Shown here one piece after another: positions 51,946 through 53,565 of a stretch of DNA of 64,000 nucleotides. How positions within the stretch are numbered: position 1 is the first letter of the stretch; each line of letters begins with the position of its first letter. The position numbers and the translations under genes were made by a program. A model generated the notes under the pieces. It was given only the letters and a program-made list of their open reading frames with translations, did no database searches and was not told where the DNA came from. The stretch is from Haloferula rosea (GTDB lineage Bacteria; Verrucomicrobiota; Verrucomicrobiia; Verrucomicrobiales; Akkermansiaceae): assembly GCF_016595525.1 (NCBI RefSeq), contig NZ_JAENII010000010.1:62001-126000 (forward strand), in the 5' to 3' direction.

Positions 51946-53565
51946 ATGAGCAACTACGAACGAGAACTTCAAATGGTCGAAGAAGCGTCCCGCAAGGGAC
52001 CTCTCGGCAAGGCCGCCATCTACACCAAGCTGTCCGGCCCAGGCTGGATGCAGGGAGCCATCACCCTGGGAGGTGGCTCGCTTGCAGGGGCGCTCTATCT
52101 CGGGGTCATCGCCGGCTTCGGGCTGATGTGGTTGCAGCCCCTCGCCATGATCTGCGGCATCATCATGCTCGCCGCCATCGCCTACGTCACCCTTAGTACC
52201 GAGCAGCGACCCTTCGGCGCCATCAATCAGCACCTTTCTCCGCTGCTCGGCTGGTCGTGGCTGATCGCCACCATCATGGCCAACATCGTTTGGTGCATGC
52301 CGCAGTTCGGCCTCGGCACCGCCGCAATCCAGCAGAATCTGTTTCCCTCCATCGGCTCGGGCACCGGCACCACCATCGCCATCTGCGCGGTCATGTTCTT
52401 CATCGCCTTCGGCATCAACCTGCTCTACGAGTCGGACGGCAAGGGAGTGAAGGTCTTCGACTGGATCATCAAGATCCTCGTCGGACTGATCGTCCTCTCC
52501 TTCTTCGCGGTGGTGATCACCCTGACCACCAATGGTGCGATCAACTGGGGTCAGATCTTCGCGGGCCTCATCCCCGACCCTTCGCTGCTCTTCAAGCCAT
52601 CATCCTCCTTCGATGCGCTGATCGCCGCCTCCTCCAACCCGGACTGGTGGACCGCACACATCATCAAGGATCAGCGCGACATCATCGTCACCGCCTTCGC
52701 CACCGCGGTCGGCATCAACATGACCTGGCTCCTCCCCTACTCCCTGCTCAAGAAGCGTTGGGGCAAGAAGCATCGCGGCCTCGCCATCTTCGACCTGTCG
52801 ATCGGTCTCTTCATCCCCTTCTTCCTCGCCACCTCCTGCGTGGTCATCGCCGCCGCCTCGCAGTTCCACGCCAAGACCGACGATGTGGAACCCGGCTCGG
52901 GTGCCAAGACCATTGCCGCCCTCGAAGCATCATACGCCAAGACGCCTGAATCGGCTGTGCCGGCAAACGACAGCGACCAGCGCCTCGCCGACATGCTCGT
53001 GAAGCGGAACAACTTCCAGTTGGCCACAACCCTCGAACCGCTCGCCGGCAAGACGGTCTCCCAGAAGATCTTCGGCTTCGGCGTCCTCGGCATGGCCATT
53101 TCGACCATCATCATCCTCATGCTGATGAATGGCCTCGCGTTCCAGGAGCTGTTCGGCAAGCCCAACAACAAGACGGTCCACCTCTTCGGCTGTGCCGTTT
53201 CCGGCATCGCCGGCACCTTCGGCCCATTCCTCTGGACCGGACCGGCCAAGGCCGCGCTCGCCATTCCCACCTCGGTCATCGGCGGTTCGCTCATCCCGAT
53301 CGCCTACTTCACCTTCTTCCTCATGATGAATTCGAAGAAGGTCCTCGGTGAAAACCTTCCGTCCGGAGGGAAGCGGGTCCTGTGGAACACCCTCATGGCC
53401 ACCGCCACCGGCATTGCCACACTCGGTTCATTCTGGGTCCTTCACGGCAAGACCAGCCTGCCGGGTTGGCAGGGTGCCGTCGCCTGGGGTGGCCTCGGGT
53501 TCCTCGTCCTTCTCTTCGTCGTCGGCACGGTCTCCTTCCTCAAGAACGAGCAGAAGCCTGCCTGA
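51946..53565 (+). CDS. NRAMP-fold membrane transporter lacking the metal-binding motifs
   Basis: 539 residues, about 11 membrane helices. The first helix begins GPGWMQGAITLGGGSLAGALYLG (31-53), which aligns with the NRAMP start GPGFLVSxxYxDPGN. However, DPGN is replaced by GGGS (42-45). In the sixth-helix region, AVGINMTWLLPYSLLK (254-269) stands where NRAMPs have MPH, so both canonical metal ligand sets are missing. It is also about 100 residues longer than usual, with a polar loop at about 305-370. The protein is probably a secondary carrier of the APC fold rather than a divalent metal transporter. Placed between two sugar isomerases and a Gfo/Idh/MocA gene, it most likely imports the pathway's sugar. 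Inferred from context. Confidence 0.75.
   Translation: MSNYERELQMVEEASRKGPLGKAAIYTKLSGPGWMQGAITLGGGSLAGALYLGVIAGFGLMWLQPLAMICGIIMLAAIAYVTLSTEQRPFGAINQHLSPLLGWSWLIATIMANIVWCMPQFGLGTAAIQQNLFPSIGSGTGTTIAICAVMFFIAFGINLLYESDGKGVKVFDWIIKILVGLIVLSFFAVVITLTTNGAINWGQIFAGLIPDPSLLFKPSSSFDALIAASSNPDWWTAHIIKDQRDIIVTAFATAVGINMTWLLPYSLLKKRWGKKHRGLAIFDLSIGLFIPFFLATSCVVIAAASQFHAKTDDVEPGSGAKTIAALEASYAKTPESAVPANDSDQRLADMLVKRNNFQLATTLEPLAGKTVSQKIFGFGVLGMAISTIIILMLMNGLAFQELFGKPNNKTVHLFGCAVSGIAGTFGPFLWTGPAKAALAIPTSVIGGSLIPIAYFTFFLMMNSKKVLGENLPSGGKRVLWNTLMATATGIATLGSFWVLHGKTSLPGWQGAVAWGGLGFLVLLFVVGTVSFLKNEQKPA

Follow-up and report, generated by a model that had tools for sequence, protein, structure and literature searches.

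The question raised by this locus is what is carried by a protein that is related to the NRAMP metal transporters and in which their metal ligands are absent. The locus lies in a window of 64,000 nt from Haloferula rosea (contig NZ_JAENII010000010.1, positions 62,001–126,000), the window being the whole stretch of DNA that was analysed. The cargo is probably sugar-like rather than a metal.

The carrier and its ligand positions

The carrier gene (positions 51946–53565, plus strand, ATG start) encodes a protein of 539 aa. It matches Pfam PF01566 at 66.5 bits, the curated cut-off being 29.8, and scores 25.2 bits with the NCBIfam equivalog Nramp_1, a metal transporter model with a cut-off of 50. 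Among the 50 VIA rows listed for it, the top 25 are all Nramp-family entries. A PDB search with the carrier as a single sequence gave no match up to E 10; a profile of the carrier family gave one weak match, human NRAMP1 (E 0.13), in which LGGGS is aligned with LDPGN. The AF2 model displays the LeuT/Nramp fold, with helix breaks at residues 41–42 and 255–256. The NRAMP/APC fold of the original prediction, with helices 1 and 6 in register, is supported by this model and by the alignment with canonical NRAMPs.

In an alignment to canonical NRAMPs from the phylum of the carrier, GGGS of the helix 1 break (residues 42–45, window positions 52069–52080) is matched to DPGN, and VGIN of the helix 6 break (residues 255–258) to VMPH. 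When the carrier is read with its flanking residues, LGGGS lies on MDPGN and VGINM on VMPHN, where GINM is residues 256–259. The replacement of DPGN by GGGS and of the MPH region by GINM, noted in the original prediction, is thereby confirmed. The 539 aa contain no DPGN, DPG or MPH, and a mis-registered motif is rejected. The same replacements, GGGS for DPGN and GIN for MPH, distinguish the carrier from DraNramp, EcoDMT and human DMT1.

The ligand signature of SLC11 is given in PMC8806188 as DxxN and A/CxxM, with a helix 1 Asp described there as universally conserved in SLC11. In the alignment these positions are G42, S45, T253 and G256 in the carrier, i.e., with G in place of D, S of N, T of A and G of M, so that the predicted loss of all four main metal contacts holds when measured against that signature. 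In helix 6 neither A/CxxM nor MPH is present and TAVGIN is in register. The helix 10 Gln of canonical NRAMP/SLC11 carriers corresponds to S443, as determined by hand alignment on the conserved helix end. The helix 3 columns of the proton pathway have no acid in the carrier, in a region where a two-residue gap leaves the register unsure. As judged from these alignments, the carrier appears to have none of the known metal-binding residues. It was also described as about 100 residues longer than usual. For a bacterial MntH a length of 539 aa is on the high side, yet it is within the 437–694 aa of 20 canonical control proteins, whose frames were read from stop to stop; the description holds only approximately.

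Distribution and conservation of the family

A search of genome contigs revealed at least 70 loci that encode relatives of the carrier. By their titles these are mostly from Verrucomicrobiota, with a few from Planctomycetes or Pirellulaceae, Lentisphaeria and Kiritimatiellae and one from a Saprospiraceae MAG. A relative from Luteolibacter marinus has 75% identity to the carrier. No close relative was found in the viral contigs searched. The carrier is the sole PF01566 match in its own genome by profile search, and the same type of search of the whole assembly (97.5% complete) found no canonical NRAMP.

Conservation was scored in two aligned sets, A1 with 33 rows and A2 with 41 rows. Residues G42, G43, G44, N258 and M259 are invariant in both (33/33 and 41/41). 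S45 is kept in 32/33 and 40/41 rows, G256 in 32/33 and 41/41, and T253 in 31/33 and 41/41. Because the new motif is near-invariant across both sets, it is not a product of chance. Also invariant in all rows of A1 and A2 are W34, Q36, T40, W62, Q64, W103, W105, Q120, N131, W235, Q243, Y265, R277 and D283. The invariant Trp, Gln, Asn and Thr residues, together with the lack of an acid at the aligned ligand positions, would fit a polar organic ligand. The carrier clade is real and well conserved, and is likely to be misnamed a metal transporter.

The operon

The carrier gene is the third of five genes on the plus strand, in the order DUF1080, epiA, carrier, Gfo/Idh and epiB, with gaps of 72, 39, 30 and 3 bp. 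The first, at positions 50368–51018, encodes a putative 3-keto-disaccharide hydrolase (DUF1080; PF06439, 141.4 bits) with an N-terminus that by eye resembles a signal peptide; its start was chosen by us inside a longer open reading frame (50098–51018). Gene epiA (51091–51906), 39 bp upstream of the carrier, encodes a TIM-barrel protein similar to ketose 3-epimerases (PF01261, 127.8 bits). Its nearest solved relatives are D-tagatose 3-epimerases, the closest chain being 4pgl (E 4e-24). A Gfo/Idh/MocA sugar dehydrogenase (53596–54639; PF01408, 104.3 bits) begins 30 bp downstream of the carrier. The nearest solved chains, 3q2k and 3q2i (E 5e-50 and 7e-50), bear only the names oxidoreductase and dehydrogenase, and DgpA is fifth. 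It is followed after 3 bp by epiB (54643–55584), which encodes a second TIM-barrel epimerase-like protein (PF01261, 98.4 bits). Scans for promoters and terminators gave a signal no higher than that of shuffled sequences.

The DUF1080 hydrolase, Gfo/Idh dehydrogenase and TIM-barrel epimerase, the set of the 3-ketoglycoside pathway, are thus found in a single gene run. By gene content this resembles the 3-ketolactose locus of Caulobacter crescentus, described in PMC9007349 as having a periplasmic DUF1080 hydrolase, a transporter, two epimerases and a reductase. The NCBIfam models for BT_2159 and BT_2158 are matched by the operon enzymes far below cut-off. The best NCBIfam models, likewise below cut-off, are inositol dehydrogenase for Gfo and 5-keto-L-gluconate epimerase for epiA. 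An inositol operon was considered and not adopted, the matches being far below cut-off. The window neighbours scanned consist of the epimerases, Gfo/Idh, DUF1080, a BioF-like aminotransferase, a peptidase and DUF2071; pxpABC is not among them. A sugar-linked NRAMP in Verrucomicrobiota was not recognised in listings and the starts of abstracts from the open-licence PMC literature.

Neighbours were counted at 95 loci with distinct carriers, duplicates having been dropped; 78 of these have 800 bp of sequence downstream and 90 have 1100 bp upstream. The controls are 20 loci with canonical NRAMPs from the same phylum, which are among the highest-scoring and not a random draw; all 20 proteins have DPGN and MPH. 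The counts are based on profile searches because gene calling overlooked genes at some loci, and those of adjacent genes use alignment ends. Gfo/Idh is the next downstream gene in 41 of 78 family loci compared with 0/20 controls, and an epimerase is the next upstream gene in 25/90 compared with 0/19. An earlier tally by frame ends gave 40/77 and 21/91, respectively. DUF1080 is directly upstream in just 6/90 family loci (0/19 controls); in the window, the epimerase intervenes. Within 4 kb on either side, Gfo/Idh is present at 37/60 family loci and 1/18 controls, an epimerase at 24/60 and 0/18, and DUF1080 at 11/60 and 0/18. Across the whole H. rosea genome, 27 Gfo/Idh and 14 TIM-barrel matches exceed the cut-off, and adjacency by chance should therefore be rare. 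By our criteria none of the three neighbours is present at 29 of the 73 family loci that have both flanks, one of which (L147) has Gfo/Idh upstream instead. No common partner of these neighbour-less loci was found among the ten neighbours scanned, which include fumarase, an ammonium transporter, TsaD, a tRNA synthetase, QueG, a gluconolactonase-esterase and a PQQ-repeat protein.

A further locus, L213, has the MFS version described below and looks like the same locus as that of the window, because a DUF2071-like gene follows in both, beyond the second epimerase in L213, as read from the list of open reading frames. At L213 positions 8524–9507 and 9453–10547 there are a DapA-like match (weak, below the NCBIfam cut-off and without a match in Pfam) and a LacI-type regulator beside the epimerase, which suggests sugar-responsive control.

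Exchange with an MFS carrier

Genomes of the same genus that do not have the carrier keep the dehydrogenase, at 85–87% identity in nine cases. In these genomes a hydrophobic MFS gene adjoins the dehydrogenase on the opposite strand. Among 18 same-genus genomes analysed within 3.5 kb of gfo, six have only the carrier, ten only the MFS gene, one both and one neither. For this distribution the two-sided Fisher p is 0.0025, with the genomes treated as independent despite their relatedness. The MFS gene is situated between epiA and gfo in 6 of the 10 MFS-only genomes. Genome-wide searches showed no match to the carrier in the ten MFS-only genomes at E 0.001, and none to the MFS protein in the six carrier-only genomes at E 1e-40. 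The genome with neither (G001) has a dehydrogenase that is only 64% identical. In G006 (locus L211) the NRAMP-related carrier and an inverted MFS gene are side by side, and this genome is a possible intermediate of the exchange.

Each of the nine MFS proteins that were scanned scores above the cut-offs of both Sugar_tr (PF00083) and MFS_1 in Pfam. The tenth, from G005, was missed by the transmembrane-segment filter and found by genome search, and matches the MFS profile at the locus. The G004 gene has one stop within the aligned stretch, although the frame used for the scan is open over 490 aa. Among NCBIfam models, the MFS proteins match those of aromatic-acid and sialate symporters best, with scores below cut-off, so their cargo can be assigned at most to an organic class, with sugar unproven. 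The MFS proteins form two sets, 47–53% identical to each other. These are mixed in a Gfo tree that is weakly resolved, with 3/21 inner branches starred. Where the carrier is kept, it varies: in G017 the dehydrogenase is 91% identical and the carrier 49–55%. In G042 (locus L203), from another family of the same order, the dehydrogenase is 93% identical and the adjoining NRAMP-related carrier 53%, a difference suggesting that the enzymes were transferred horizontally and the carrier was exchanged. Because the Gfo tree mixes the MFS sets and the carrier varies where it is kept, there is a hint that the transporter was swapped repeatedly around stable enzymes.

Place within PF01566

An unrooted tree covers 55 PF01566 proteins from the phylum. 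Four rows were left out (two fragments, one doubtful match and L143, a further motif-less protein), as were 12 near-duplicates and 15 family rows. The GGGS proteins form one clade (96/93), which joins a GAGS-type sister (100/100) and is separate from the DPGN proteins. The latter make up a clade of their own (100/100) beside the DAGG, DPSG and DPAG types. Long branches meet for some outgroups and make the placement of these unsure.

The absence of DPGN is nothing unusual, in that several further PF01566 groups of the phylum also do not have it. According to a 2026 preprint (Ray, Berry and Gaudet, PMC12873925), Nramp-related proteins without the motif are paraphyletic to canonical Nramps and most of their groups are uncharacterized; it describes every group other than the NRMT-like and G-motif 3 ones as entirely uncharacterized. 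By description, the G-motif groups of that preprint resemble the carrier in being without DPGN and MPH. Because of this paraphyly, and because an unrooted tree gives no direction, there is no support for descent of the carrier clade from a metal carrier, and the opposite order is at least as likely. The term repurposed, used in the original prediction, is therefore dropped.

Another motif-less NRAMP (L138, positions 4886–7240, plus strand) has TGTGS in helix 1 and a C-terminal part that matches a lactonase-type beta-propeller. An unfused relative (L141) has a pfkB carbohydrate kinase and a BNR-repeat protein nearby. The two are a further hint of carbohydrate-linked NRAMP relatives.

Proposed function and alternatives

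The carrier is best explained as a LeuT-fold member of PF01566 that imports the organic substrate of the adjoining enzymes, to which we assign a probability of about 0.78. It would be an inner-membrane protein with a central site that has no metal ligands. Gly, Ser and Thr would line this site, which could admit a small polyhydroxylated organic solute, the probable substrate class. Alternating access is by rocking of helices 1 and 6 in LeuT-fold carriers generally, and would be so here. The imported solute would then be converted by the Gfo/Idh dehydrogenase/reductase and the two ketose-epimerase-like TIM barrels. A 3-keto-hexose is the best single guess for the exact substrate, and a tentative one. 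The fold, the loss of the ligands, the conservation, the gene linkage and the slot exchange are observed, and import and the substrate class are inferred. Taken together, the comparisons give good evidence that the cargo is organic and probably derived from a sugar. A sugar-related substrate, proposed earlier as a possibility, is now likely from the neighbours and the MFS exchange. Against import of an organic solute are the 29 neighbour-less loci, the opposite strand of the MFS gene and its unproven sugar cargo, the genomes with both carriers or neither, the rarity of DUF1080 as a neighbour and the one canonical control with Gfo/Idh within 4 kb.

TIM-barrel epimerases often use Mn2+, and a metal carrier would thus suit the operon. 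The protein could still import a divalent metal (e.g., Mn2+ or hydrated Mg2+) through backbone and hydroxyl ligands and feed the metal-dependent epimerases, which we consider improbable. In favour of a metal, its genome encodes no second PF01566 protein. The NRMTs described in PMC8806188 transport Mg2+ with a reshaped site of signature DxxG-TxxA/T, and T253 of the carrier matches their threonine, with Gly at the fourth position, giving GxxS-TxxG. However, the helix 1 Asp, which the signature of NRMTs such as EleNRMT keeps, is Gly in 33/33 and 41/41 rows. PxpT of Corynebacterium glutamicum, assigned to the NRAMP family by its authors, is needed for growth on 5-oxoproline, and metal transport by it is not excluded by them (PMC13274462). 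Its homologue YcsG, a PF01566-type protein outside the canonical groups, is reported to have raised cellular Mn2+ in B. subtilis and was named the Mn2+ importer MntG (PMC10448178), its cargo being disputed. These proteins differ from the carrier in belonging to a 5-oxoprolinase operon and, for PxpT, in a length of 436 aa, compared with 539 aa and a sugar-enzyme operon here. Two further observations argue against a metal: the adjacent neighbours are absent at the 20 canonical metal-carrier loci, and an MFS carrier alone fills the slot in 10/18 congeners. To our knowledge, MFS carriers are not usual importers of Mn or Mg.

A different organic cargo is a possibility that we judge rather unlikely, namely a sugar acid, part of an aromatic glycoside or a cyclitol in place of a neutral keto-sugar, with a carboxylate held by the glycine-rich break of helix 1. 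The GSG motifs of amino-acid carriers bind carboxylate through backbone amides. The aromatic-acid and sialate models of the replacing MFS proteins, the inositol and 5-keto-L-gluconate models of Gfo and epiA and the link of PxpT to an acid (PMC13274462) would agree with such a cargo. However, the named models are all matched far below cut-off, and the scanned window neighbours include no further typical inositol or uronate enzyme. This alternative overlaps in substrate class with import of a polyhydroxylated solute. It is quite improbable that the protein is an exporter or a sensor (transceptor). Sequence cannot tell direction, and the neighbour-less family loci would allow such a role, but the operon enzymes are of catabolic type and the exchange is with proteins whose best models are symporters. 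Import is the direction to which these features point.

Implications

On the PF01566 profile alone, the carrier clade would be labelled NRAMP-like, i.e., a metal transporter. If the clade moves sugars, such names mislead, and next to its 5-oxoproline-linked branch PF01566 acquires a second one that is linked to carbohydrates. A broader proposal, which we put at a little under even odds, is that the whole mainly verrucomicrobial clade consists of carbohydrate carriers that trade places with MFS proteins in a keto-sugar locus, and that the metal site of SLC11 is a specialisation of an older organic-solute family. If the clade does move sugars, the natural swap, in which one locus has either carrier in sister species, would make it testable whether metal transport is ancestral or derived.
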